A model generated the notes under the pieces. That model saw only the letters and a list, made by a program, of their open reading frames with translations, did not search any database and was not told where the DNA came from. The translations under genes and the position numbers were made by a program. Shown here piece by piece: positions 12,501-63,600 of a stretch of DNA of 64,000 nucleotides (positions are counted from its first letter, which is position 1; every line of letters starts with the position of its first letter). This DNA is from Liolophura sinensis. Lineage: Eukaryota; Mollusca; Polyplacophora; Chitonida; Chitonidae. Where the stretch lies: assembly GCF_032854445.1 (NCBI RefSeq), contig NC_088298.1, positions 19,985,295-20,049,294 of the forward strand, given 5' to 3'.

Positions 12501-13882
12501 TCGCAGGCAGAAAGTAGTGGAAGAAATACTTTTTAATCCAATTTGATGCGAGAGTGGAAGGGACAATTTGACCATTAGCTGTGAAAAATCCGGCGGGAAT
12601 TGGCTTCTCAGCAAACCATCGCCCAATATAGAGGCCAGGGGAATTTGGACCACCTTTGTCCTCGAGTCGTTTCAGCCACCCATTCCCGCTCTCTCTCCCC
12701 CTCCCACAGGGAATTCTGGTAAAACCGATGGCCCTTGCATCTCGCCCCCTTATAATCATGGTAAGTATTCGTCTATTCCAGGTCATTAGACAGGGAGCAA
12801 CTTTCTGTCTACTCTTCTATTACTCCCAGCAAAGAAATCTATTATTGTATATTTAGGTTAAATGAATTTGCAGGTGTTTGTAAATATGCTAGTTGTGGAA
12901 TTTTGTTTGGTTTTTTTTTTTTTTTTTTTTTTGCTTTCACACTCACACTACAGTAAGTGTAGTTCCTGATGTGCTAGAATTGAGTCTGATCCTTGCATGT
13001 TTGAGCCATAATAATTAATAAAACTGCACTTTAGTTCTCAGTGCTAAAACTGAGTCTGATCCGTTGATGTTTGCGTCATCATAATTAACAAAACTGCCCT
13101 TTAGTCCTCAGTGCTAAAACTGAGTCTGATCCGTTGATGTTTGTGTCATCATAATTAACAAAACTGCACTTTAGTTCTCAGTGCTAAAACTGAGTCTGAT
13201 CCGTTGATGTTTGTGTCATCATAATTAACAAAACTGCACTTTAGTTCTCAGTGCTAAAACTGAGTCTGATCCGTTGATGTTTGTGTCATCATAATTAACA
13301 AAACTGCACTTTAGTTCTCAGTGCTAAAACTGAGTCTGATCCGTTGATGTTTGTGTCATCATAATTAACAAAACTGCCCTTTAGTCCTCAGTGCTAAAAC
13401 TGAGTCTGATCCGTTGATGTTTGTGTCATCATAATTAACAAAACTGCCCTTTAGTCCTCAGTGCTAAAACCTAGTCTGATCTGTTCATGTTTGAGTCATT
13501 ATAATTAACACAACTGCGCTTCAATTCTCAGTTGTTTTTTTTTAAATTCTGGTGGGATCAAGTTTTCATAGCAGTTCATGACCTCATTTTGTTTTGTTCA
13601 GACTTCTGATAAAAATCACCATTGTATGTTTACCATCATTAATGTTGTTCGTGTGAGTGATTGCACATCTGATAGATTGTACATATCTGAGTATACTTGT
13701 ATCCCTGACTTATTTTCTCTTTTACATTGTCCACTTAATAATAATAATAATAATAATAATAGTAATAGTAATGATAATGTGTCTGCTGAGGGTGAGGGTT
13801 AGTTACAAACCAATCTTCCTTAAGTCTCTCATGCATACACACATTCACACACAAAGTTAGTTACATGTATATACAGTATGTA

Positions 13883-22900: not shown

Positions 22901-25900
22901 TGATTTGGAATGGAGATCACTTACCTACTTAATACTGTGGATAATTTTGGGAGATTTTTGCTGACTTTGTGTGTATATGTAGCATGTGGAATACTGTTAG
23001 TCTGTGTATAAAAGATGAAGCACATTACACATCAGGGTATAACATACATGTGTATGAAATACAATGAAATGAAATTCTATCAAGGTTTCTAAGTTACATG
23101 TACCTAGTTCCTCAACCTTTTCGCATATAAAGCAGCAACTTTCAGTGCAATTTATGCACATTTACAATTAGATTTTGGGGACAAAACTACGATCGCTGGA
23201 TTGGCCTTGTGTGATCATACACCCACTCCTACCAATTTAGGGTCCAAGTGGGTTGACTTCAAAGTCGTTAAAGTTGGGAAAATTCTCATGTTTGGTGTAA
23301 AAACCCTAGTATATATATATGTATATGTGCATACACTCAACGCATCCATGTCCAAGTGATTGATAATTAAAGCAAAGAAGAATACATCAAGAAGTTGTTA
23401 ATCGGAATACTGTAAATCTTCAACCTTTTGAACCACTAAATCACTTTTTTCATTGAATATTATGCATACAATTCTTATGAAAATCATGCTAAAAATGATT
23501 TGTTTGTGCAAACTTCAAAAAAACTATGCCAATTATTTATCTATACCCCGTAGTTCTCTCAGAATATTTTAAAACTATGTTGGTAACAGAGGCTGCTGAA
23601 AAGATTGAAGAATTGGGGTAATCAAAATTATTTATTGAAAACATGTTAAACAAGAATACATCAAAAAATTGTCAAAGTAATTTAGAAATTATTACTCAAA
23701 ATCATCAAGAAGAGATCAAACACACTTTCGTGTAAGCATTTCTCTGAAACATTTCCCTGGATACAGAGAACGAGGTTTAATTCCTAAACTCTGGGGCCGA
23801 TTCCTTGAAACCATTTCTGACTTAAATTTGAAATGCAATCTTGAAATTGAAATTTTGTTGTCTTAATCATTGTTATCTTAGGACAAACGTATGACCCTGG
23901 AGCCTCAATGCAGTCATTGTGAGTTCAAGTCCAGCTCTTGCTGGCTTCCTCTCCAGCAAGATATGGCAGCAACCTGCGGATGGTCGTGGGTTTCCCCGGA
24001 TGTCTGCCCAGTCTCCTCCCACCCAAATGCTGGCTGCCGTCGTATAATATTCCTGAATACGGTGTAAAACACCAATCAAATAAATAAATAAATAGGACAG
24101 GCTTGTCTAAATTTCAACTTCCAGTACCAAAAACTAAGCATCATAAAGAGTTTTGTAAATTATGTCTTATTTTGAAACAGTATTGTAGAATCTGCCCCAG
24201 TAGATGGTGTATATTGTCCATTACATGTTTTTTTTGATACACACATTATATGTGTAATAATGTTCACATACACATGAATATAAAAAGGCTAAGAGCAGCG
24301 TCAACAGACTTTCAGTTTTTATGTCCACATGTGCTGATGTCATCTTGACATTGTTTATTGAGAGTATGGGGTGTTCTGTGTTCTTCTAACCTACGGCATG
24401 AGCTAAGGTTACAGTATGCTGTCTATGCCGAGACTGTGTAATTACATACTCTCTATAAATACATATGTACACACGGGCTGTTTTATGTCAGGAGAAACAG
24501 GGTGTGTTAGTGAAGGCTCTGGCATTTTTATATCCCCTGTAGTATAACACTTATCCTGGTTAAGAGTTCAAGTCCCAGAACCATCAATTGTTTTGCATTA
24601 TTTAAAAATAAGGTGGTCAGACTATGGTGATTGGGGCCTTTGAGAAATAATAACGCGTTGTTAATTAGCTCTATTGGACCAGTCACACACACAAGGCTTT
24701 CTAGTATTTTTGAATGTTTCCATATTTAGCTTAAAAAAAAAAAGTAGGAGCAAGCTCTTTATAACATATACCATTGAATACCATTGTATTCATCAACTTC
24801 AGCTGGTGAACCACCCTGGATTTATCCAAACCGTTTGCTAAAATGTATAATGTCTCTGACCAGAAACATCTCTGTAATACATCATAAGCATTCATTTCTC
24901 TGTGGAAATGCTATTTATTCATGTTCGTGTTGCTTTTTCTTTTCAGTCAAGAAGTACTTGCGAAACATCTCCTTAATAAGTCATTAGCATTCATTTCTCA
25001 CTGAAAATGCTAACTATTATCATTCTTGTTTCTTTTTTTTTTGTTTTTCAGTCAAGAAGTACAAACAGGTTAAACGTCACCACTCGACGGGTGACATGTT
25101 ATCAGGGGAGCTGGATTTAGAGGACAACCCCACCCCCATCACCCTCTCGCAGAGGCCTAAGTCCGAAGGTCACGCCTACAACAGGTTCTCCCCCAAGAGG
25201 ACGACCAGTTTTATGGTAAGTCAAAGGTTAATGTCTGCTGTGGATCAATAAAAGACTTTAAAGCCAAAGAAAACTTAATACATGTGTATTTAATGGTCAT
25301 CTGATAGATAAGGTGGTTTGTACCTATTTTGATATTTGAATTTTTTGAATTTTTTTTTAAGAAATAAACTTTTTTATTTGTAATCTATGGTGGTTGCTGT
25401 TAATATAGGTTAAAATCCATCAGATAAGATTTATTTTCCAACCATTGCTAAGCATTTTTTCTTGGCATAGCCCTTTTCTGTCATTTATTGCATTTTATAC
25501 AGTCAACTTTGATAATAAAAAACGAATTTTGAAATGTTCAGATTACTTTTTATGTCCACACATTACAGATTATATTATGGTATAGAGTACCCTGTCTGTC
25601 TATTTGTCTGTCTTTCTGTCTGTCTGCCTGTCTCTGTGTAAACTGCTTGATGTTACCTAGCAATTGTTACAGAATTGTTTAACTTAGAAGTTGTTCACTT
25701 TTATCTCTGGTACCAGGGCCGAAGCTTACTGAATGCAACTCGCAGCAGCTTTTTACGATCTATTGGCTTGTCATTTGAAGAATTGCTTCACTTGTAATAA
25801 GAGTGTGAAATTGGATGCTTTTATGTATTTCACTCATCCATATGAAGCTTGATGACATAGTCTTGTTATTCACTGCCATGATAGGTGTATCTTATGCATA

Positions 25901-28900
25901 GATTTAGCACCGCTTTGTTGGGCTAATGGTTGGAGCGTCTGCCTTGAAGTTGGGAGACCCGCGTCAAACCCCATTTCAGGTCATATCAAAGGCTTTAAAA
26001 ATGGTACTTGTTGCTGCCTCGCTTGGCGCTCAGCACTTAGAGATTAAAGTACATGGAAACAGGACTGGTTGGGCCAGTGTCAGTTGAATGAGACTGGGTG
26101 GGGTATCATGTGTGTGGCATGATAGTTCAGTCACAGCAGCTCTGTTACAAAGAATCACAGTGTATCTACACACACCTAATAACTCTTCCTCATCATATAA
26201 CTGAAAAGTTGTAAAGTACGACATTAAATCCCAAACATTCATTCATTCATCCATTCATTCATTCAGCCAAAAAATTTGAAATCGTGCCGTCTCATTTCCA
26301 GTTTTCTCCTATTTTACCTATCTCTCCAATGTTAATTTTGTGAGAAAAGGGCATTTCAAAGACACTCACAGACACCCCGCTGGCCCACCCTGTGATCTTA
26401 TGGTCCCAGAACTGTTGTTTGTTTTTTATTGTTCGTTTCAAGTTTAGGTTGCTTTCTAGATTTTTTATCTGGTCATTCTCCTTTCTGTTTGTAGGGTAGT
26501 TCACCGTTTGGCAAAGCTGAATCCTATCAGAAACTTGAGCAGCTTGGAGAAGGATCCTACGCCACTGTCTTCAAGGGGCTGAGCAGGTAAGGCTGTGACA
26601 AAAGTGGGAGGGGAGAAGCTAAGAGAGAGCCTTGGGTGTGGGGAGGGGCAGACATATGAATGACCAGAAAGTCTTAAAAAACAGGAAAATCATAAAAAAA
26701 AACATGTAGATCAGATAAAATAAAAGTATGGATATTTGATTTTTTTTCTTAGTGTTAAAATAAAGTTGTTGTATCCCAATGGTGTGATTTAATAGTGTTC
26801 ATATATGAGGGGGCATTTGGAGCTAGTACAATAATATGATGGTACATCTGCATTGAACTGGTGTACAAATGAATAAATCAAATAACATTATATGCTACTG
26901 TACATGCAACTATGGAAGAAAACATGAATCCCTTTTCTCCTATTATAATTCTTATTATTATTAAAATATTATAATGTCCAAAAGTGCAAACCATAGCTAT
27001 AGCTAATGGTATGAAAACATGTGAAGAGTATCAAGTGTGCTCATAAAACATGCCTTACACACGCACTGCAACCTCACAGAAGAAAACCATGCGTTCTACT
27101 GTTGTTTGGACACCCTGCGTAGCTCGTCATCGAGTCTCTCATTGTTTGCATAAATTCCACTGATAAAAGTGCTTAAGCAGTTGAAATATTACACTATTAA
27201 AAAAAAGACATATTTTAATTAAATATGAGCAAATATGGTAGCATTTCGACCCGTTTATTTCGGCATCATAAATAATCTTAATCATGCATGTTATTGAAGG
27301 TCAGCACAATAAAGCCCTAAATTTGATCATGGACATTATGCACGTTTTGTATAAAACTGGAAGTTTATGTGATCCCCACAGGTTTTTGGATGATTTCTGT
27401 GAACATGTGTCCTTCCTTGAGTAATATATGTTAGTTTTATCAAATCTTATAAAGGATGCTTTTAAATTGCCTCTAAAGCTATTCTTTACTTGTCAGATTT
27501 GTTGAGGATTTCAGGTAGTTCTTCAAGCTTTACACATGTTTCCAAGATGTATATCCAAGCTTATTCTGGGGGCATTATTCTGTGTTGGCTGATAAAATCA
27601 TACTTTCTGTGAAGCTCGGGAATTGGCCAATCCACTCAGTGTTGTTTTGTCTCCAAAAATAAAGTTTAAAAAATGTGAATAAATTGCACTGAAAGTTGCT
27701 CTTTCAGTTGCGCAAAAGGTTGAGGAATTAGGGTAGTGATGACCTGGTACCTCATGCTGCCTCCATGTTCTGGCTATTCCATTGTTATAAGATCATAACC
27801 CCATTCTTTGGGCATACACTTTCACAGCCTCATTTCCTATTCTGCAAAGTCGGCAATAAAGTCATTTCCAATCTCATTTAGTCAGCGGAGAAAAGATTTA
27901 ATATCGTGATCAATAAAGGGGCTTATAACGAATCAGAAATCAATTTGGCAGTGTAGGATTATTGTCTTTAAGGACACTGATAATGGGAGATAAATGTCCT
28001 GGCTCATTACTCTGTAATAAAATTTTACGGCGTGAAATGACTCCCTAACAAAATTTATTATAGTTTCAAAGCCAGAGAGTGGAGGAATGCAAGGGAAGTA
28101 AATCTTGTGCTACTTAAGCCGGGCTGAGAGAGAGGCTGAGAGACAGTTGATTTATATATAGTTTAGGGTTGGGATTTTAATACCTTCATGTTCTGGAATA
28201 ATTCACACTTAAGCTACATCAATTTATGCTTTTATTTTATGCACATAGTGAATCTTTTTCCTGTTGAAGGTATAAAACTAAACCTAACAAATCATCTAAT
28301 TTAAGGGAAATGTGAACTGCCTCAGCAATTTTTACTAGTGAAGTCCTATTTACTTGATTAGAACACAGGAAATGATGAAAATATTTGTCAGACAGAATAG
28401 AAAGGTGAATTTTCAATTTTATTTCTATTTAAGTTTGGGATTTTTTAGTGTCTGCTCACTTGAAAAAAAAAATAGAATTGGTGTCACTCTAATGACCTAA
28501 AATTTCAGCCAAAAGGTTGCATTTTTTAGAGGCAAATAAATGTCATCAAATTAAGAAATAATGCCTAACGTCAATGCGGTCGCTGTGAGTTCAAATCCAG
28601 CTCATGGTGGCTTGCTCTCCAGCCATACGTGAGAAGGTTTTCCAGTTACCTGCGGATGGTTGTGGATTTCCCCCATGCTCTGCCTGGTTCCCTCCCACCG
28701 TAATGTTGGCTGCGGCCGTATAAGTAAAATATTCTTTAGTATGGTGTAAAACACCAAAGAGATAAATACATATTTGTAGAATGTTGCAGCTGTAATGGGA
28801 ATTTACACTTGTTGTGTCCCATCATTTATTATTTCAGTTTAACCCATCAGACGGTAGCTCTGAAGGAGATTCAGCTTAAGGAGGAGGAAGGGGCTCCATT

Positions 28901-31900
28901 TACAGCCATCAGAGAAGGTACATGTACAGTTTGAAACTACGAATTTTGGAACTTTTACCTGTAACTCGCATATTTATAAACATATTCATTCTCTAATTCC
29001 CAGAGAACTGTGCGTTGGCCAAGAGCTTTAATTGTCCTAGTTATGGTCCGGACTTTGAATGTGCCTAAAACAGTTTTTACGATTCGTATGTGCTAACATG
29101 GTGCTGAGTGTATATTAAAAGGGGTAAGGCAAAGTGTTCATCAGTCTGGTTACGGTGTACTGGAGCTGCATGGGGGTGTCTTTGGCATGTTGCTTCATTG
29201 ATGCAGCACTATAAGTGTGTGGACATTGGGACTGGCTTATTACTAGTAGTTTACCAACAGATGTTGAAAGTGTTGTTACCCTAATTCCGCTAATTTTTGG
29301 GACAGATATTAGTAGTGTTGAAAGTAGAATATTACATTTCTTTACCAGCCTTTTGAAAAAGTAAAGGTATGAGTATGTTGTTCATTGGATGATCTAACCA
29401 TGTGAGAAAGGAGAAACACAATTTTCCTGCTAGAATTACATATATAAGCAAAACAGTCAAAACACAGGAGTAATATTACAACCTTTATATCGTGGTAACT
29501 TATCCTAAAACAGGTGATGAAAATGTTGACCTAGTTGACCTTGAGATTAAGTCATTTGGATTATTATTGTCTTAATTTTGATCAGTCCATACGTTTTTAA
29601 ACCTACCCTAAGTCTTGAAAAAATTTGTCCGTGGAAGGACAATTTTAAATGTAATTTGAAAACTAAAATTAATGCCTGGGCACTTACATAAGTGTTTGTG
29701 TGAACTGCACAGAAATTTTAAATGACATCCACCTGACCAGATCAGATAGCTTTTCGTCTAAATATACTACATGTACTCTATGTCTTTGATCAAATTTGTT
29801 GATGGTTCAAGATAGCTTTATTGCTGCATATCCAGAATATGGTTCAATTTGATGACATTGTTTTTGTGTGTGTTTTTCAGCGTCATTACTGAAGGGCCTC
29901 AAACATGCGAACATTGTCACTCTTCATGACATCATCCACACCAAAGAGACCCTGACCTTTGTATTTGAATATGTGGTGAGTGATGTGCAGATTCAAGCTT
30001 TTGGCCACAATACAGCTGAAAAAATGGCGTTAAGCCATAATCATTCATTTTTTCAGGCTTAAATTGCCCAGTTTCCTCCCACCATGATGCTGGCTGTATA
30101 AGTGAAATGTATGGGGTAAAACACCAATCAAATAAATAAGTAAAATCAAGTAAAATTCACTAAGCACTAGATTTCGCTTCAAAGACAAGGCCAACAAGCT
30201 AAGACAGATACAATATACTTTTCTGTTGTTGTTGCACCACCAGCATGCACCACATGCTCACTTCTGTGTGAACATCTGTTCATTCCCGGATCAGAAAGTA
30301 TGAGGCATAAAGCCATGAGGACTTTTTCATCTAGGAATGTACAGTTACAAGGTCTGTCCCCCACTTAAACGGTCGCATTGGTGCTACATGATAAATGATT
30401 TCTGTGTTTAGGGGTAGGAGTAAGTAGGCATATGAAGTGGGCAGATGGAACTGTGTTTTAGTTCTGATTCTTTATGTGTGGCAACATGGCCAAGATATGC
30501 TTGGCTGGACAATTGGCTGGAGTACTTTCTTGAGAGAGAAATTACCATTTGTGAATAGAGTGATGTCAGGACAAGTGTTTAACATCAAAGAAATTATGTA
30601 ATCAATCACTTTCATTAAAACAAATTTAAGTGGGTGTGGGTCTTGTGTTTATGAGATGAGATCTGGAAACAGATGAAATCTGGTTGGTCTTGTTTTTTAA
30701 ATTGAAGTGTTATTTTATTTTGGCAGTAGAAACATAATCCAATAGCAGCTCAGAGCTGAAGAAGGGGCATATAAACATAGAATTTTTCATCTCTGAATTG
30801 TTAAACAAAAATTGAATTTTTGAAAGGGATCAAAGACAAGTCTCTGTTGTATAGGTAGTTTATATAAAAGTAGAATCATGTTAATTAGGTATTTATTTTA
30901 TTTTATGTTTTTAACGAGTTAATAACATTATTTTTTCGTTTCAGTCCTCCGACTTAAGTCAGTATTTAGAAAAACACACAGGTGGACTCAATCCTTTCAA
31001 TGTTAAGGTAAGCTGTGTGTGTTATCAAACATGTAGATGAATACTGGACGTTATGACCCCAAATTGGTGACCCCTTACCAACGAGGCCTCAAACTGATTA
31101 GCCCCCTTACCAAGGAGGCCCCAAGCTGATTGACCCCTTTCTAATGAGGCCCCAAGCTGATTGACCCTCATATTAATTAGACCGTAAACTGGTTGACCCC
31201 CTTACCAATGAGGCCTCAAGCTGATTAACCCCTTACCAGCGAGGCCTCAGACTGATTGACCCCCTTACCAACGAGGCCCCAAGCTGATTGACCCTTCATC
31301 AAAGAGGCCCCAAGCTGATTGATACCTTACCAACAAGGCACCAAGCTAATTGACCCCCATACCAACGAGGCCATAAAAGCTGATTGATCCCCTTACTAAG
31401 GAGGCCCCAAACAGATTGTCCCCCTTACCCATGAAACAGCAAGATTAAGTCCAGCTCTCTCACTGAATGGCACTCAGTTCAAAATCAGGGGGACTGTCAG
31501 GTGCCAGGTTTACTCCAGGCTATCACATCCAGCTCTCCTACTGCTTGGCACACAGTTCAAAATCAGGAGAACTGTCAGGTGTCAGGTTTACTCCAGGCTA
31601 TCAAATCCAGCTCTCTCACTGATAGGCACACAGTTCAAAATCAGGAGGTCTGTCAGGTGCCAGGTATACACCAGGCTCTCCACTTTCTTTTGAGTAAAAT
31701 CAATCGAAAAAATAAGGCAATTAATAATTATGCCTTTGTTAGTGTAAAATTAAGTTTGTTGGGATGGCACTTTGCAGGATTCACTGTTTTCCTCATGAGA
31801 TCTACATTTGCATTTATTCACCTGAACACGATTGCCTGGGGCCTTCGTCTTCGAGATGGTTAGCATGCCAGTGCAGCGCATTTACGCAAGAGCCTTTCTC

Positions 31901-34900
31901 CAGTGTGGTCGCTGTCAGTTCAAGTCAAACTCATGCTGGCTTCCTCTCTGGCCGTACGTGGGGAAAGTCTGGCAGCAACGTTCATATGATCATGGGTTTC
32001 TCAGGCTCTGCCTGGTTTCCTCCCACCATAAATCTGGCCGCCATTGTGTAAGTGAAATATTCTTGAGTACGGCCTTTATATAAATGAAATAATTTTGAAC
32101 ACAGAGTTAAAATGGAGAAAAAAAAGACATTAAATGAAGATGAAATGTTTTTGTTTTTGCAGTTATTCTTGTTCCAGTTGTTAAGAGGGTTGGCTTACAT
32201 TCACAGATTTAGGATATTACACAGGTAAGTAGGAAACCAAGGTGATGGTTGCCTTGACAACAGTGAAAAGGTATCATAGATGGATTGCTGTATTGAAAGT
32301 TTTGTTGCCATGGTTATAATATATTAAGTCATAATTCTACATGTTATAAAGTTTGACCATTAAGATATATCATTTTGTTTTTACCAGATTTACTCCTCAT
32401 TGCTATTCCTTACCAGATTTACTCCCTTTCACTGTTCCTTACCAGATTTACTCCCGTTTATTTTTTGCAAGATTTTCTCTTTTTTACTCTTTCTCGTGAG
32501 ACTTACTCTTCTTTAAAGGAGAAGAAAACATTTTAAAGAAAACCGCAAAATGATGCCAAAATCAGTTAAAAGAGCATCAAAATTTATTTGCAAATATGGT
32601 TTGTAAAGTGGTATTTGAAAATATTTTTGTATTATGGATATTTGGAACCACATTTTGGTACTGATCATCGTTGCATAATAATGTTCTAAATAAGGATGTG
32701 AGGCATGTGTAATAAATTTACTTGAATGAAAATTTGTTGTTTATATCCAAAAATATGCATTTAGCCTGATTATGATAATAATTATGAATATATTAAAAAT
32801 ATCAAAATAATGAAAATCCAGTCTGGACACTTTTGTTAGCTGAAAAAAACAAATTCTATCGCACGTATATTTATTAAACATGTGTTACATCTTCATTTAT
32901 TACATTACTACAGAAAGATCATATATACCACATGATGGTTTCGCAATACCCACCATATAAAATTATTTCCAAGTGTCTTTTTCTGTTTAAAGAAAAATGT
33001 TGAAGACCACATTTATGACTAACTTTTTACACTCTTTCATGTGAACTTTTTTTCATGTGTAATTTTTATGTTTTTTTTTTTCACCTTTAATACTTACTTT
33101 ATTTATTCTGACTCCTTTGCTAATTTCTTACAAAATTTCTTCTTCATTACTATTTCTTACAGGATGTTTTCTTATTTTTCAGAGATTTAAAACCACAGAA
33201 TTTACTTATTAGTGATATAGGTGAATTAAAATTAGCAGATTTTGGTAAGTACATTAGGAAGATTTTTGATGAATATACCCAGTACATTGTTTACGAGCAT
33301 TACCATATATGAAAAACTGTTTGCAGCTGATTTTGGATTTTAATCTGTGAAACAAATTGTACATTTGATAATTTCATGATATGAAGGCGGACCTTGTTTA
33401 AAATTACTAATTTCTTAGTTTTGTCAGGTAGAATTGAAGTTCTGATCATACAAATCAGAATACAGAAGGCCTGCCAGCAACCTGCAGATGGTCGTAGGCT
33501 TCCCCCGGGCTCTGCATAATGTTGGCCGCCATCGTATAAGTGAAATATTCATGAGTGCAGCGTAAAAGACCGATCAGATAAACAAATAAACATTACACGT
33601 TTCATGGAGATTTGTGCACAGTGGCTTTGTGTAGATATGTTAATGGTAACTTCCATGTTAACAACATAACAATTGTTCTGTTACCTTTTGCATCCTAAAT
33701 TGTTATTTTTGGGAGTTCAAACAAATGAAGCTGACATTTTCCATTGCAGGATTAGCCCGTGCCAAATCTGTGCCGAGCCGGACGTATTCTCATGAAGTGG
33801 TTACACTTTGGTACCGTCCCCCTGATGTCCTGCTAGGCTCAACTAACTACTCCACCTCACTCGATATGTGGTACGTACTGAGACATTATCTAACTACTCC
33901 ACCTCACTCGATATGTGGTACTTACTGAGACATTAGCTAACTACTCCACATCACTCGATATGTGGTACTTACTGAGACATTAGCTAACTACTCCACCTCA
34001 CTCGATATGTGGTACTTACTGAGACATTAGCTAACTACTCCACATCACTCCATATGTGGTACTTACTGAGACATTAGCTAACTACTCCACCTCACTCGAT
34101 ATGTGGTACTTACTGAGACATTAGCTAACTACTCCACCTCACTCAATATGTGGTACTTACTGAGACATTAGCTAACTACTCCACCTCACTCGATATATGG
34201 TACATACTGAGACATTAGCTAACTACTCCACCTCACTCGATATGTGGTACATACTGAGACATTAGCTAACTACTCCACATCACTCGATATGTGGTACTTA
34301 CTGAGACATTAGCTAACTACTCCACATCACTCAATATGTGGTACTTACTGAGACATTAGCTAACTACTCCACCTCACTCGATATATGGTACATACTGAGA
34401 CATTAGCTAACTACTCCACATCACTCGATATGTGGTACGTACTGAGACATTAGCTAACTACTCCACCTCACTCGACATGTGGTATGTACTGAGACATTAG
34501 CTAACTACTCCACATCACTCAACATGTGGTACGTACTGAGACATTAGCTAACTACTCCACATCACTCGATATGTGGTATGTACTGAGACATTAGCTAACT
34601 ACTCCACATCACTCAACATGTGGTACGTACTGAGACATTAGCTAAGTACTCCACATCACTCAATATGTGGTACATACTGAGACATCAGCTATTTGACATC
34701 ACTTGATATGTGGCTTGCACTGAGACATTAGCTAACTCTCCACATCATTTGATATGTGGTACGTACTGAGACATTAACTCCTCCACATCACTTGATACGT
34801 GGTACATACTTAGACATAAGCTAACTGTTGCATAACATATATTTCAGGGGTGTAGGGTGTATATTTACGGAGATGATATCTGGTCTTGCCACGTTTCCTG

Positions 34901-37900
34901 GGATGAAAGATGATCAACTAGACATGATCTTCCGGGTATGCATTTAAGTATTTCTTGTCGAGCGTATCTCTGTTACCACAGTGTGCCTGAAATATTGCCA
35001 GCTTGGCATTAATTAAGAAATACTCTTTCAATCGGGTGGATCTTTAACATTTATGCTGGAGCGGGTCATGGTAGAGAGGTTAAGACGATTGTCTATAAGG
35101 TGTAAGTTCAATCTTGGACATACCCGGCACTCATTGTTCATTGAATCTTAATAATAAAAATGTACTAGCAGTTTGTGAAGTCTAATATTCATTGTGGACC
35201 AGAATTTTGAGAACCCAAATCTGTATGTTCACACATTGGAAAGTTTGTCAGTAACTTGCCAAGGGTTGGTGGTTTAACTCCATAATTTAAATTCAGCGCA
35301 GTAAATAAATAAAATGCGGCTTTAATATAGGTAACCAAGGTCTTAACGTATAAAATGCAAAAGTGTTAATATATTTAGATTTTACATTTGAATTTGTTCT
35401 TTTTTCATTCTCAGGTTTTGGGTACACCCACTGAGGACACATGGGAAGGGGTAACGCGCTACCCAAATTACGACCTAAGTAAGTTATCAGGTCAAAAGTA
35501 TGACAGACTTCCAGTTTCATGTATGTGCTACATTTGGAAGTCTGGTACATGTATAATAAGGTGGTCACCTAACTTGAAGAGGTCATTTTTTTGAATGACT
35601 CGTGTGACAGGCCTGTAGGAATTTTTTAAATTTTTCTTTTTTTGGTCAAAATTTGGCATATCCAAACTAGTCTTAAACTAGAAATTAGGAAATTTTTATC
35701 TGCATTTTTGTTTTTGTGTGAAAGGAGCACAATGTTCAGATGTTTTTAGTGCATAGGTGGAGAAATGTTTGGACTCTTTAGGAAAAACTTAATATTTCAA
35801 CCATGGCTAAGGGTGGTGGTTTCCTTGAGTTCTGTCTCCATTTTTTCCACCCAAAAACCTGTCCGTCGTCGAATAAGTGAAATGTTCTGGAGTATGTCAT
35901 TAAACCTGGTTAAATAACTTATGTGTCATATAAGTAACACCTTTGGTGGCCTAATGGGTAGAGTGTCCGCCTCATTGTCAAGAGAACCAGGGATCAAACC
36001 CAGGTTGGGTCAGATCATATCGAAGACTTTAAAAATGGCACTTTCTGCTGCCTCTTGGCACTCGGCAGTGAGAGGTTAGAGCAAGGAGACAGGACTGGTT
36101 GGCTCGCTGTCACTGTAATATGACAGGGTGAGGTGTCATGTCGGGTGTCTTTAAAGCAATACTTCAGTGGAGGCAGCACTTTGGCGGCATGAGCTCGCCC
36201 TACCGCAATAAGACACAGTATATGTACAAACACATAATGACTCCTCATCGTCACATAACTGATAATATTAAGCCCAAAGCATACATACATACTTTCATAC
36301 ATCATATAAGTAAAATGAGCAGAAGGTTAAAACTGGTTAAACAGCTTATTTCGCTAATATCCATTTACTTTGTAAATGCTGTTCAGTATCTCTGCTACAG
36401 TAATGTTGAGTTTTTAATTTAATAAACATTGATTTCTCTTGGATGCTGGAAATACATTAACCCTTTTTGGTTCTCATTTTTGTCTTCCATTAATATGAAT
36501 TTACTTTGTAACTGCTGGTCAATGTTTCTGTGACCGTAATTTGAATATTTAAATTCAGTTCACATTAAGGAGCCTCGGTGGCTGAGGGGGTAGCTCGCCA
36601 GCAAGTCACAATGACCCAGGAACCTCCCACCAATGCGGTGGCTGTGAGTTCAAGTCCAGTTCTTGCTGGCTTCCTGCAAATAGTCGTGAGTTTCCCCTGG
36701 CCTGTGCACGGTTTTCTCCCGCCATAATGCAGGCTACAGTCATTCAATACGGTGTAAAACACCAGTCAAATAAATAAATTCACGTTGAAACCACTCCAGT
36801 GTTAGAAATATATTAAGTCTGTTTGGTCCTCATGTTTGTGTTTCAGAGCAATTTGGGCTTTATCCTCCACAAAATCTAATGACTGTGATTCCTAAAATCT
36901 CCTTTATTCCTCTGGCGGCACACCTGGCGTCACAGCTGCTGCAGGTAAGTGGGTCATAGCTGTTTATATCTGGGGCCACATGTCCTCAGGAAAATACTTC
37001 CTGTATGTAATATACGGGATGAAGATGTGTACATTGTAGGGGTAAGGGTGTCTGAAAATGCAGCTAGTGCATATTTTGCAATGAATGTGAAATACCACAA
37101 ACAGTTGATGCGGCCTTGCACTCAGTCTCTTGGTGATTAAAATAAAATATGAATGTTAAAGATAGAATGTTAGTTAATGTTTTATATTTGACCGATCATG
37201 TACCTGGAATTTTGAAACTTTTGGATGATGGCTCAAACAACCAGGGCTGGTATTTATCAAGCTGCTAGAAATGCTGAAGAAGTCAAACTCAGAACAGGAA
37301 AGGACTGAAATTGTGGCTAGTTTTATTGCAGTGTTTTTGTGTTTTGTTTTGCTCCAAAGAATCAGCATGAAAAAGTTTTAAACTTTCTAGAGCAAAATAT
37401 TTTAATTGTAGTTGTTTGAATTTTTTGTACTTATTTTCATAATTAAGGGCCCTGTTTCTTGTTTTGTGTTGGTGGACTCAACCCAATTGATGTACCGGAT
37501 ACTTGATGTATTAGAGTTCCAGATCATCGTGACATTTGACTCGTAAGATGGCTACTGTTTATAGCCCCAGACCTGGAATTTTATCACATTTATCTCCCTT
37601 GTGATGTAGTGTAACAACAAGTGGTTGTCTCTGTATTTTGACTTGTAGATGAACCCCCACCGGCGATTGTCGGCCCAGAAGGCGATGAAGCACGAATACT
37701 TCTCTGACCTCCCTCATCTTGTTCATGAACTTCCAGATGGTAACTCAGAAAAATGTCATCTTCAATATATTTATGTGTGCTGTAATTTTTCAACCTTTTC
37801 ACATGTTTTAAAGGTGTTTATTCAAGCATATTCTGAGGGCATTATTCTCTGTAGGCTGATAAAATTATATTTTTTGTAGTTTTGTCTTCAAAATCAAATT

Positions 37901-54600: not shown

Positions 54601-57600
54601 GGGTTGCGTAAGATACATCATTCAAATCTCTTCATCAAGAGGAGCGCAAAAACAGAGGTTTTTGAGCATGGTATAAAGAATAGACAGAAGAGCATTTAAG
54701 ACAGAATTGTAATTATAATGCTGTACAGCCATGACGATAGGGAAAAAATTTCAGAGTGAATAGTGAAAAAATTTTCATATGCAAAATGTGTGGTTTTGTA
54801 AAGAATTGAAACGATAAAACATTTCTCAAGAAACAAACTGTTTTAAAACAGGGTAAAATAAGCCATGAGATCTTGTGAATTTCTGTCAATACAAAATGTA
54901 CAGAACATAATGATTTAAAATTCTGTAAATAAATAGGTTAAAGTGGTGAAATTCTGAAAATACATATGATCCTGATGTGAAATTCTATATATAAAAAAGC
55001 ATATGATTGTTATGCAAAATTCTAAATCGATAATAATGAAGCGGAATGCAAGAAAAGTACACTGTATGTGATGATGCAAAACTGTGATACAACATAAGTA
55101 ATGACATCATGTAAAATTCTGTAAACAAGCAAGACATGGACCTGAAATTCTGAAACTAAATACAATAAATGTTGTAACAGAATATGAAATGCTGTATAAA
55201 AACAGTTATGATGTCACTTTCTATACACAAGAAAAAAATGATTGTGATGTGAACTTCTATCAATATTATGATGCAAAGTTCTGTACCCAAAAATTATTGT
55301 GGTGTGAAATTCTGTCAATGATTATGATGCGAAGTTCTGTACACAAAAATGATTGTGGTGTGAAATTCTGTCAATGATTATGATGCGAAGTTCTGTACAC
55401 AAAAATGATTGTGATGTGAAATTCTGTCAATGATTATGATGTGAAAGTTCTGTACACAAAAATGATTGCAATGAGAAATTTCTTACAAAGAAATGGTTAT
55501 GATGAGAAATTCTGTACACAAAAATGATTGTGGTGTGAAATTCTGTCAATGATTATGACGCGAAGTTCAGTACACAAAAATGATTGTGGTGTGAAATTCT
55601 GTCAATGATTATGATGCGAAGTTCTGTACACAAAAATGATTGTGATGTGAACTTCTATCAATATTATGATGCAAAGTTCTGTACACAAAAATGATTGTGA
55701 TGTGAAATTCTGTCAATGATTATGATGCGAAGTTCTGTACACAAAAATGATTGTGATGTGAAATTCTGTTCATAATCATAAAGGATTATGATGTGAAAGT
55801 TGTGTACACAAAAATGATTGCAATGAGAAATTTCCTACAAAGAAATGGTTGTGATGAGAAATTAAGTGCACAAAAATGATTATGATGTGAAATTCTGTAC
55901 AGAAAAGTGGTTATGGAATTCTGAAGATGCCAATGGTTGGTTGGTTATTAATTATTTTTGTTTAGTTTAACCTACACTAGGTATAAATCTAAAACACACA
56001 CATCAAAACACAAATAATGTAACTAAAAGAATAAATAAGTATTACAAAAAGACCTAGAAAACTAAATATTACCAAAAGACCTAGAAAACTGAATATTACA
56101 AAAAGACCTATAAAACTGAATATTTTGGTCAGTTTCATAAAGACATCAACCTCAAAATTAAGATTCTTAAATTTTTAAGTCAGTTTTTTCCTTTTCTTTA
56201 ACACTTATCAAATAAATGAATAATAATTATTGAATTATTTGATAGGTCCTTCTGATGTACCTTGAACAATACTTTGGGAAGAATATTTCACTAGGATAAC
56301 ATGTATTTCTCCTTCCAAAACAGTGAAAAAAAGGTACATAAATATTTTGCACCTCACTTTTCAGCTTTATGCTCTTTCACAGTGACGTTGGTGAGCCTAT
56401 TTTAGTCCCAGCTGACATTAAAAACATAACAAAATTGGTTAACTTCTATTACAAAAACTAACATCCCTAAAATGTAAGTCGTTAATTTCAGAATGCTATA
56501 AATTAAATAAATAAAAATAACATACATATAGGATATGTTAAGAAAACAAAAAAAAAAAATAAAAAAATAAAAAAATCCAGGAACACCGCAATTTTACTGA
56601 TCTATATTAAAAGGCAAACTCCTTTCATAATATCTGGAAACAAATTTTTCACACCATACTCACCCAAAACCCCATACTCTAGGATCAAACAAACCACAAA
56701 ATATTCTCAAAATCTATTTTCTGTATGTATGTCATTTTCACCAGTTTGATTTCTGACGCTGACATGATGGTTTTGTTGCATGATGAAATTTTCCACAGGA
56801 TATTTTTGTAAAATTCATATATGCCACTATCTAAAATCTGTACAAAAGTCATTATTTTCATGTATTTTTAAGTACACCTTAAAATACCATTTCACCTCAC
56901 ATTTTCCTATCTTTCTGTTGGACAAAAATACAACAACAACAGCCAAGCAAAACTGCCGAGTCATGTACTCACCCCTGGCCTTGGCAGTGACAGGTACACT
57001 TGCTTCTCCATCTTTCCTTGGACAACGTCGTTCACGTCTTTCACCAAAATTGACAGGTCGTTAATTTGGGACTCCCAGGCATCGGCGAACACATCAAGAT
57101 TTTCCCGGGCGATTTTACTGCCTGGGTACTGAGCCAATGTTTGTGCGGCATTTAAAGTCTTGTAAAGAGAAAAACATTACAGGATACAAAGTACGGATTT
57201 CTGGCATTATCACTAATAAAAATTTCACCTGAATAATAATATTCATAACATCAATAGCGTTTTAACACAGATAAATTATTCACCTCAACTGAAAGCTAAA
57301 ATTGCTAAAAGTGAAGTTAAATTTATCATTTCAATTACTTTTATCATGAAAATTTCTACCAAACTGAAGTAAGTTCAACTTTGATTCAGAACTGTAAAAC
57401 ACAACTCCTCTTCATAACAACAATGATGTACATGAGTTTGTTGAAATTAATCTCACCAAACACGTATAAAAAAACAACAAAGACTTACCAAAGGGCCAAT
57501 ACTCTTGATAACAGACTCAGCATGTTCTGCAGTAATCACCAGAGGTTCCGTGTTGGAAATATGCCGTAACAGTTTGCAAACCTGTGAACAACGAATGGGA

Positions 57601-60600: not shown

Positions 60601-63600
60601 ATCTAAAATGGCCTTAATTAGTTGAACTTTCAGTCCTTCAGATAAACACAATCATGTAATCGGCAATTTAAAAGATGTTGGAAACAAATTTCTCCAAGAG
60701 AATGTTGTCATAATGTACACAGTTGTTAAGCTTGGTTCTGTAGTATTAATGTCAACGCTGTCCCTGGCCCAATTACAAAAAAAAAACCGGAATTTCCAAG
60801 ATATTCAAGGCCTGGAAAACGTAATTTTTTTAATTCCAGGACTTTTAAGGTTTGGATGCTATACGATCCCTGAACAAAGGGGGTTAAAAATATGAACAAA
60901 GCGGGTTACAAAAATTAACAAAAAGGGTTACAAAACATGAACAAACAGGGTTACAAAACATGAACAAAGGCGGTTGAAAACATGCAACTGACTAACCTCA
61001 AAATCTTTGATGCACCTGCTAGCCGTAGGCTGACTGGTCGCCAAACCTATCCCAGAATCCCCATTGACTGTGGGCGACATGTCTCCGTTAGACTGGCACG
61101 TTCCATCGGAGACAACGTGCTGGACAAGGTCAAGTGCCTTACGCATTAGGCGGAATACGCCCTCGCGATTAGTCCGCGCAGAGTCGCAGTCAGGGTGACG
61201 CAGGGACGTCTGAAATCAACAACATTGGCAAGTCCTTAGTAGGACATTTACAAGAAGACAATGCATCTATCTCCGGCCGTATGTGGAAGGTCTGGCAGCA
61301 ACCTGAGGATGCTCATGGGTTTCCGTTTGGTTTCCTCACACTGTAATGCTGGCTGCCATTGTATAAGGGAAATATTCTTGAGTACGGCGTAAAACACCAA
61401 ATCAAACTAAGAATAATGCATCTAAATTTTATAACCATGAGGAACTATCTCTACCCTAGGACTGTTTTGTAAGCATTTCTCTGGCAGTTTGAACACACTT
61501 AAATACTATAACCATCCTGATATAAAACACAAAATCATGGGTGAGAAATGAACACGTTCGTATGACTGACTTACGGACAGGCAGGCTGACAGACAAGCAG
61601 ACTGACTTAGAAAGTTACCATGCCCTGAGACAATGTCCTGCATGAAATAGTAACTGTTGTTGTTCTTTTTTTTGGATTTTATTTTCTAGTGTAGACTGCA
61701 TGAGGGACAGGCAGACGGACTTACAGAGTTAATAGATTTTTTTTCTAGTGTAGACTGCATGAGGGACAGGCAGACTGACTTAGAGAGTTACTATGACTTG
61801 AGACAATGTCCTGCATTAAAAAGTAACAGTTGTTGTTGTTTCTTTGGATTTTATTTTCTAGTGTAGACTGCATGAGGGACAGGCAGACTGACTTACAGAG
61901 TTACCAGATTTTATTTTCTGGTGTAGACTGCATGAGGGACAGGAAGACTGACTTAGAGAGTTACCAGATTTTATTTTCTAGTGTAGACTGCATGAGGGAC
62001 AGGCAGACTGACTTACAGAGTTACCAGATTTTATTTTCTAGTGTAGACTGCATGAGGGACAGGCAGACTGACTTACAGAGTTACCAGATTTTATTTTCTA
62101 GTGTAGACTGCATGAGGGACAGGCAGACTGACTTAAAGAGTTACCAGATTTTATTTTCTAGTGTAGACTCGCGCTGACATTCTCTTTACCGATCACAGGT
62201 TGACACAGTGACAACCACATTTAAATGTATCACTACCCAGTGGTCGATTGATATGGGGATTCGCTTGATTTCTTTAAATGGTTTAAACCAAGTGGTAAAG
62301 GAAGGGTGTAAATTGGGTTTGGTTTTTCCGAGAAAAATAAACTAAACGAATGCAAACAATTTATGGGGACGGTCCTTAACTGTTTAGTACACGACAAAAC
62401 TACCATGTAAATAACACTGTAAATTTTTTTTTTAAGTAAACAGTTGGATAATTCACTATTATGCCCTGCATCAACACAAACAACCTCCAGTCTAGAGATT
62501 ACTAAAGACATTGTTCCACATGGGTCTGTGTTTTACCTTGCAGGATGTGAGCAACATCATTGTGGACTTCTCTAGTACAGTCCTGGCAGCTCCCATCTGA
62601 GCTCTCTGCTTGTCACTCTTCAGATCCTGGGGTAAGAAAGTCACACACCCATCTTCATTTTAGTTATTAAAGGGGATTTGACATATAAGACATTTAATGA
62701 TAATTGTAACTGCCAAAAATGCCCATTTTCAGAGGCCCATTTTTGAGGGTCTATACATATGACTTTTTTTGTGCTGAAACTTACACTTTTCCATCATGAT
62801 GATATCAGCAAACCTCAAAACACCTATAAGCTCAGAATCAGGTAAAATGAGGAATTTGGTCATGTACAAATTTTTGGGTCAAATATCGTATGTTCACATA
62901 CAGGAAGAGAATTCTACTGTGTTTTTTTTTTTTGTTACTGAGCAGTACTAAACAAATATATATCAGCAGACATTTCTGGAGCTATTTAGGAATGCTTTGT
63001 GAAATGTAATTATTCAGGCAATTTGCACTAATCAATTCAAATCAAACAGATTGTAAATCAAAAGAATACACGTTTCATAAATAATCAGAACAATGCCATC
63101 AAATTTATCCCTTGTACACCAAAGCAACATCAACTACTCTAATTTCTCAATCTTTTCACGTATGAAAGAGCAACTCTGAGTGCAATTTATGCGTATTTGT
63201 AACTGGATTTAAACTACATTGTTTGGATTGGCCAATTGGAGGGCTTCATAAAAAGTATAATTTCATATGTCAACGTGTACTAATGTTTTCAGAATTAGCT
63301 GGAAAAAAACATCTTGCAAACCAGCAAAAAGGTTGAAGAGTTAAAGTACACTGGTTCATTTTTTAACATTCATTTCCGTGCTTGCGGTCGCTGTGAGTTC
63401 AAATCCAGCTCATGCTGGCTTCCTCTCCGGGCGTAAGTGGGAAGGTCTTTCAGCAACCTGCGGATGGTTATGGGTTTCCCCCGGGCTCTGCTCGGTTTCC
63501 TCCCACCATAATGCTGGCCGTCGTGAAATAAGTGAAATATTCTTGAGTACGGCGTAAAACACCAATCAAATTAATCAAATAAATCATTTCCATGCTTCTT

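Follow-up and report, generated by a model that had tools for sequence, protein, structure and literature searches.

A tandem array built from an exon end and its 5' splice site in a CDK14-like kinase gene of the chiton Liolophura sinensis

Minisatellites that straddle a splice junction are known from amphioxus and from a handful of human genes, and here we report a mollusc example of this type: an array of 21 units in a CDK14-like kinase gene of the chiton Liolophura sinensis, within a stretch of 64,000 nucleotides (assembly GCF_032854445.1, contig NC_088298.1, positions 19,985,295 to 20,049,294 of the forward strand; hereafter the window, whose own numbering is used throughout unless a sampled locus is named). 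The genome of this chiton was first published under the name Liolophura japonica (609,495,693 bp in 632 scaffolds; PMC11068029), which its own authors have since changed to L. sinensis (PMC12441733). The gene order of the mitochondrial contig of the assembly, as read from its tRNAs and reading frames, looks like that of chitons, which speaks against an amphioxus origin. In amphioxus such repeats are called mirages, and are found in Adh3, the globins BflGb6 and BflGb9, PGBD5 and troponin C, with units of 10-72 bp in Adh3 and 150-160 bp in the globins (PMC3087553, PMC3902484); reverse transcription-polymerase chain reaction (RT-PCR) suggested that splicing is regular, somatic instability was reported at Adh3, and the origin of the repeats was called unclear (PMC3087553). 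In humans, intron 18 of ABCA7 contains a variable number tandem repeat (VNTR) with a 25-bp unit that starts with the exon 18 donor, is polymorphic at about 12 to 427 units, and is accompanied by altered splicing, retention of a single unit having been observed (PMC5954066). A 31-bp VNTR of CBS is written c.1444_1467+7(16_21) (PMC2630376), two downstream repeat units of IFI6 (6-16) serve as donors and generate isoforms (PMC4526556), and tandem repeats at exon-intron boundaries have been connected with the appearance of new introns in duplicated genes of humans (PMC2812944). Within the open-licence literature, none of the titles or abstract openings listed named a splice-junction minisatellite in molluscs or chitons. 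We read the chiton array as a neutral splice-junction minisatellite of the mirage kind, with the exon-proximal true donor in use, and place the probability of this at about three in four.

The host gene lies on the + strand, with coding blocks spanning approximately 26496-37739 that were identified by tblastn and translation as those of a CDK-type kinase. A PFTAIRE motif is present at 28896 (+ strand), in an exon that aligns to the PSTAIRE region of CDK2, and the gene is thus a PFTAIRE kinase, in agreement with a preliminary description of the window that had named it CDK14. When the exon at 33750-33870 is joined to the following one at 34848-34935 (both + strand, from tblastn and translation), the top PDB match is CDK16 (E=2e-29, among the best 60 of 460 matches); CDK14 would be the sensible name, although the gene may be CDK15, and we refer to it as CDK14-like. 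The end of the first of these exons was placed by homology (GLARAK...NYSTSLDM|W, continuing as GVGCIF... in the following exon), which puts the true 5' splice site, GTG|GTACGT, at 33871-33876 (+ strand) in phase 2, where its frame joins the exon beginning at 34848 behind an acceptor AG at 34846-34847.

The last 28 nt of exon 33750-33870 are the seed of the array. Tandem Repeats Finder (TRF) reports a repeat at 33843-34826 with a period of 47, 21.1 copies, 91% matches and a score of 1541, while unit-by-unit alignment resolves 21 units at 33843-34820 (no strand assigned), 18 of them exactly 47 nt long and followed by units of 43, 46 and 43 nt. Unit 1 comprises the genuine exon end (33843-33870) and the initial 19 nt of the intron, and is followed downstream by 20 copies. 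A blastn search with the true junction locates 20 additional places inside the array at 83-97% identity, and because of these matches, and because the copied piece codes for a conserved kinase stretch, the array cannot be a product of chance; since the exon piece encodes a conserved motif, the copies must also run from exon to intron. The preliminary description had identified the unit as the exon end plus its 5' splice site, and both the unit-by-unit reading and the junction search bear this out, along with the 47-bp period. Its division of the unit into 26 exon and 21 intron nt is replaced here by 28 and 19, the cut point of a tandem unit being partly arbitrary, and its count of about 21 units following the exon holds only if the true junction is included. 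When units 1-4 were searched against the assembly as DNA, with very common words skipped, 6 matches were returned, none of them outside the array.

The likeness to amphioxus mirages is close. Each unit combines exon and intron nucleotides (28 + 19), the splice signal GT is found in 19 of the 20 copies, and inner units are homogenised while edge units are spared, as in mirages: unit 8 matches unit 12 exactly and unit 15 matches unit 17, and the most diverged are the 3'-most units 19-21, which bear deletions, the exon-side edge being unit 1, which is under coding constraint. The chiton array differs in belonging to a mollusc rather than a lancelet, and has 21 units. The CBS repeat, which by its name has 24 exon and 7 intron nt in 16-21 copies, is near the chiton array in plan and copy number, but is human, polymorphic and clinically studied. 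Like splicing-active VNTRs, the chiton array holds a donor within its unit; with the ABCA7 repeat it shares a start at an exon donor, a GT in the unit, a unit length that is not a multiple of three, and decoys that lead to an early stop, although the ABCA7 unit begins at the GT and, unlike that of the chiton, contains no exon bases.

Almost the whole of the array-bearing intron is repeat, with 950 of its 977 nt contributed by the array and 27 nt, from a CTAACT to the AG of the 3' splice site (34821-34847, + strand), forming the sole non-repeated part after it; a single unit in place of the array would leave an intron of 46 nt. CTAACT is present both at the unit start in the exon (33843) and directly after the array (34821), a placement expected as the remnant of a duplication between two short identical stretches. 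The second copy lies 22 to 27 nt before the following exon, at a branch-site location, and may be branch-site-like by the general consensus. We suggest that the process began with tandem duplication of a short stretch over the exon end, probably aided by the CTAACT in the exon and that near the 3' end of the intron, which would have lain 47 bp apart before amplification, and that ordinary repeat turnover then amplified it. Inverted repeats were sought in the array and none were found, and RNA folding of the array, carried out without shuffles at array length, showed nothing telling.

The predominance of repeat in this intron raises the question of whether the intron is itself a product of the array, gained or grown through duplication of the exon end in the manner of the intron-gain model proposed for amphioxus globin mirages (PMC3087553). 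Of 20 kinase matches listed from beyond the window, 19 continue through the intron position, 13 of these with no stop codon, which favours this model; however, the 19-nt and 27-nt pieces of the intron are by eye unlike either exon, so that the seed intron was probably pre-existing and the model is quite improbable here. The narrower idea that the first intron was born by exon duplication was set aside, as its 46 non-repeated nt match neither exon by eye. Near-identical units are also a classic trap in assembly, and the real array could be shorter than it appears, but HiFi reads with a mean length of 8,347 bp at 14x coverage (PMC11068029) ought to cross an array that is 1 kb long and has units that can be told apart, and an assembly expansion is hardly credible.

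GT is preserved in all copies except unit 19, where it is replaced by GC, and is accompanied by a G at position +5 in 6 of the 20, +5 being the most altered column of the unit (13 of 20 copies). The donor reads GTACTT in units 2-7, 10 and 11, GTACAT in units 8, 9, 12, 18 and 21, GTACGT in units 13, 15, 17 and 20, and GTATGT in units 14 and 16. Thus the decoys of units 2-12 (33918-34393, + strand) all lack the +5G, those of units 13-17 (34435-34628, + strand) all possess it, and unit 20 (34759-34764, + strand) again carries a nine-base site identical to that of the true donor. The preliminary description had reported these four hexamers as a graded ladder; all four are present, but they are interspersed along the array and form no gradient, and the ladder is rejected. 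It had also proposed scoring the site of each unit, and by U1 pairing energy four decoys (units 13, 15, 17 and 20) equal the true donor at -6.3 kcal/mol, two (units 14 and 16) are slightly better at -6.7 kcal/mol, and the other 14 are weaker (-4.1 kcal/mol for the weakened decoys, and -1.5 kcal/mol for unit 19, which lacks GT). The same scoring of nine further donors of the gene gave values between -5.0 and -13.7 kcal/mol, six of these donors being stronger than the true one. Among the nine is an inferred natural donor at 28918, AAG|GTACAT (-5.6 kcal/mol), which shares its hexamer with some of the weak decoys; provided that homology has placed the exon end at 28918 correctly, GTACAT is able to function as a donor here.

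Use of any decoy would break the kinase, as the preliminary description had anticipated. We worked out the reading frame that splicing from every one of the 20 decoys to the following exon would produce, and each runs into a premature stop. With the donor of unit 2 this is a TAG in the following exon; with the remaining 19 it is a TGA at 33926-33928 (+ strand), within unit 2, which is also the first in-frame stop on read-through. Even units 4, 7, 10, 13, 16 and 20, which extend the exon by a multiple of three, fail in this way, because the TGA at 33926 is met first. The TGA had therefore been placed correctly, and the accompanying argument, that later donors shift the frame because 47 is not a multiple of three, is unneeded. 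As every decoy ends in a premature stop, no alternative full-length protein can result, and the only outcome is loss of the kinase. The repeat donors of IFI6 yield isoforms, whereas every decoy of the chiton array is a dead end. A 1995 paper by Turri (cited in PMC4526556 and PMC2572611), to judge from its title, is reportedly concerned with an IFI6 (6-16) minisatellite that yields several splice donors.

The CDK14-like array is one of many in this genome. We sampled 36 other kinase loci of 7 kb each from the same assembly, in which 90 coding blocks were mapped by tblastn, and TRF detected 54 arrays (period >=15, at least 3 copies, thresholds fixed after an initial look at 16 loci) covering 23,390 of the 252,036 sampled bases. 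Read by eye, a true splice site is included in an array at seven of the 36 loci, at the acceptor in L006, L011, L026 and L028 and at the donor in L019, L034 and L036, the unit of L011 holding the acceptor and hardly any exon; the other 29 loci have no splice-site array at a mapped block. Two loci were left uncounted: in L014 the array stops about 16 nt short of the exon, and in L018 it begins about 17 nt into the intron. For these loci, which were chosen from kinase matches and are not random genes, and for which some tblastn block ends are not true exon ends, random placement of seed units against 178 block ends gave a mean of 2.07 arrays, and at least seven in 0.4% of 2000 runs. When whole arrays were placed at random, on average 3.4 fell no more than 12 bp from a block end, versus 8 seen, a figure reached in 1.55% of runs, the 8 found by script being the seven read by eye plus L018, whose array misses the site. 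The one non-kinase stretch tried, a single myosin gene of 8.7 kb selected for its many exon matches (nine), also carries a donor array, of 31 bp and 6 units (L040, 2742-2933).

Across these loci the decoys are largely intact. The cleanest case for testing exon-proximal site choice is L019 (4009-4397; G000:C6), a kinase gene with a donor array of 39 bp x 10, where all nine decoys have both GT and +5G and six are identical to the true nine-base site. The other donor arrays in kinase genes retain GT in 5 of 6 decoys and +5G in 3 of 6 (L034, 2981-3466), and both features in 3 of 3 (L036, 2040-2306), one of these three being a poor match in which 10 of 31 bases differ; the myosin decoys, read by eye, have GT in 5 of 5 and +5G in 4. 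Before a kinase exon at L006 (1-1751; G000:C11), in what is presumably a CDK5-like gene, units of 56 and 68 bp supply at least 22 acceptor decoys, and the AG is kept in 22 of 22, 6 of which read GAG rather than having a pyrimidine before the AG. The remaining acceptor arrays in kinase genes, at L011 (4493-4799), L026 (3520-3837) and L028 (3057-3632), keep AG in 8 of 8, 7 of 7 and 6 of 6 decoys, respectively. Counting all nine arrays, the CDK14-like one included, 84 of 86 decoys retain their GT or AG, with no sign of decoy purging, in a count by likeness that favours intact decoys. Of the eight sampled arrays only L019 has a TRF period divisible by three (39); the periods of the other seven are 31, 31, 37, 67, 77, 80 and, at L006, 56/68, and such arrays seem unlike a device for producing alternative proteins.

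The wider surprise seems to be this apparent abundance. It is quite possible, although we put it forward tentatively, that junction minisatellites are a common class in this genome, seeded at donors and acceptors more than elsewhere (seven seen versus about two expected) and with largely intact decoys. If so, the spliceosome must in many genes choose among 3 to 23 near-identical sites by exon adjacency alone, and the duplications have their cause in some process linked to splice junctions or their sequence. Moreover, if roughly one in five kinase loci of this chiton (7/36) bear such arrays, the animal is rich in naturally occurring cases where splice sites that are nearly the same differ mainly in place, which puts the rule of exon-nearest site choice to the test. 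Such arrays are also relevant to intron growth and to the origin of repeats of this kind, a question left open in PMC3087553.

Recurrence of this kind has consequences for the proposal of the preliminary description that the array tunes the kinase by copy number, with decoys competing, some transcripts lost to early stops, and array length setting kinase output. Several observations are compatible with tuning: six decoys equal or slightly exceed the true donor, which itself pairs with U1 less strongly than six of the nine other scored donors of the gene, and a 2001 study by Lievers, which we count on this side, is said in its title to tie the exon-intron VNTR of CBS to reduced activity. The donor-containing repeat of human ABCA7 likewise leaks one unit into the mRNA, out of frame (PMC5954066). 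On the other hand, the 11 decoys nearest the exon are the weakened ones, amphioxus mirages seem from RT-PCR not to disturb splicing (PMC3087553), and other genes of the chiton bear decoys equal to their true site, suggesting tolerance. Because seven of 36 other kinase loci and the myosin stretch carry splice-site arrays, tuning becomes less likely still, and we regard it as distinctly improbable; by analogy with these neighbours, regulation is unlikely to be the main meaning of the array, which is probably harmless baggage and not a switch, since similar repeats are present in several more genes of this chiton.

A different role for selection is suggested by the distribution of intact donors, as GT with +5G occurs in 0 of 11 proximal decoys (units 2-12) versus 6 of 9 distal ones (units 13-21). 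Decoys might compete, and selection might have retained near the exon only units altered at +5, the very column that has changed most. However, a single G>T spread by unit amplification could explain eight of these units, G>A is a product of CpG decay, the GTACAT hexamer of other units is not dead in itself, being that of the inferred donor at 28918, and the decoys of L019 keep +5G without exception. Of the 11 distinct changes in units 2-18, 5 lie in the 4 CpG bases of the unit's 47 (binomial p 0.0013) and three of the 5 are C>T or G>A, and change at the splice site looks partly mutational, with a CpG bias: GTATGT and GTACAT are the expected CpG-decay products of GTACGT, while GTACTT arose separately and probably became common through amplification. 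Selective cleaning of the array is consequently an unlikely explanation.

Under the neutral, mirage-like interpretation, the true donor would be used as the copy adjoining the exon body, the other copies would be removed within the intron, and a rare transcript spliced at a decoy would stop early and presumably be degraded. The anatomy of the array, its derivation from the exon, the stops and the recurrence in other genes are observed directly, and exon-proximal use is the most likely course, but four points weigh against this interpretation. Units 13, 15, 17 and 20 share the nine-base site of the true donor, so that their silence must rest on position alone. The contrast in +5G between proximal and distal decoys (Fisher p 0.002, for units that are non-independent) could signify selection against nearby decoys and not neutrality. 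Decoys in the sampled arrays were located by their likeness to the true site, which biases the count toward intact ones. Finally, a founding intron of 46 nt is very short for an animal, and some flanking intron may have been lost.

A second splice-junction duplication at the locus lies across an acceptor, next to an exon presumed from its position. It is an imperfect two-copy repeat at 24863-25042 (+ strand; TRF, blastn) of a 3' splice site and the bases after it (TTTTCAG|TCAAGAAGTAC), and places a decoy acceptor 105 nt upstream of the presumed true acceptor of an upstream exon at 25052, which is assigned to the CDK14-like gene by position only. Further sizeable minisatellites of the window, clear of mapped exons, are located at 12971-13532, 31071-31429, 55234-55915 and 61675-62169. 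Elsewhere in the assembly, a sequence of 108,685 bp (G000:C99) contains seven COX1 matches approximately 15.5 kb apart and is apparently a mitochondrial-genome concatemer, and another of 15,209 bp (C632) contains one.
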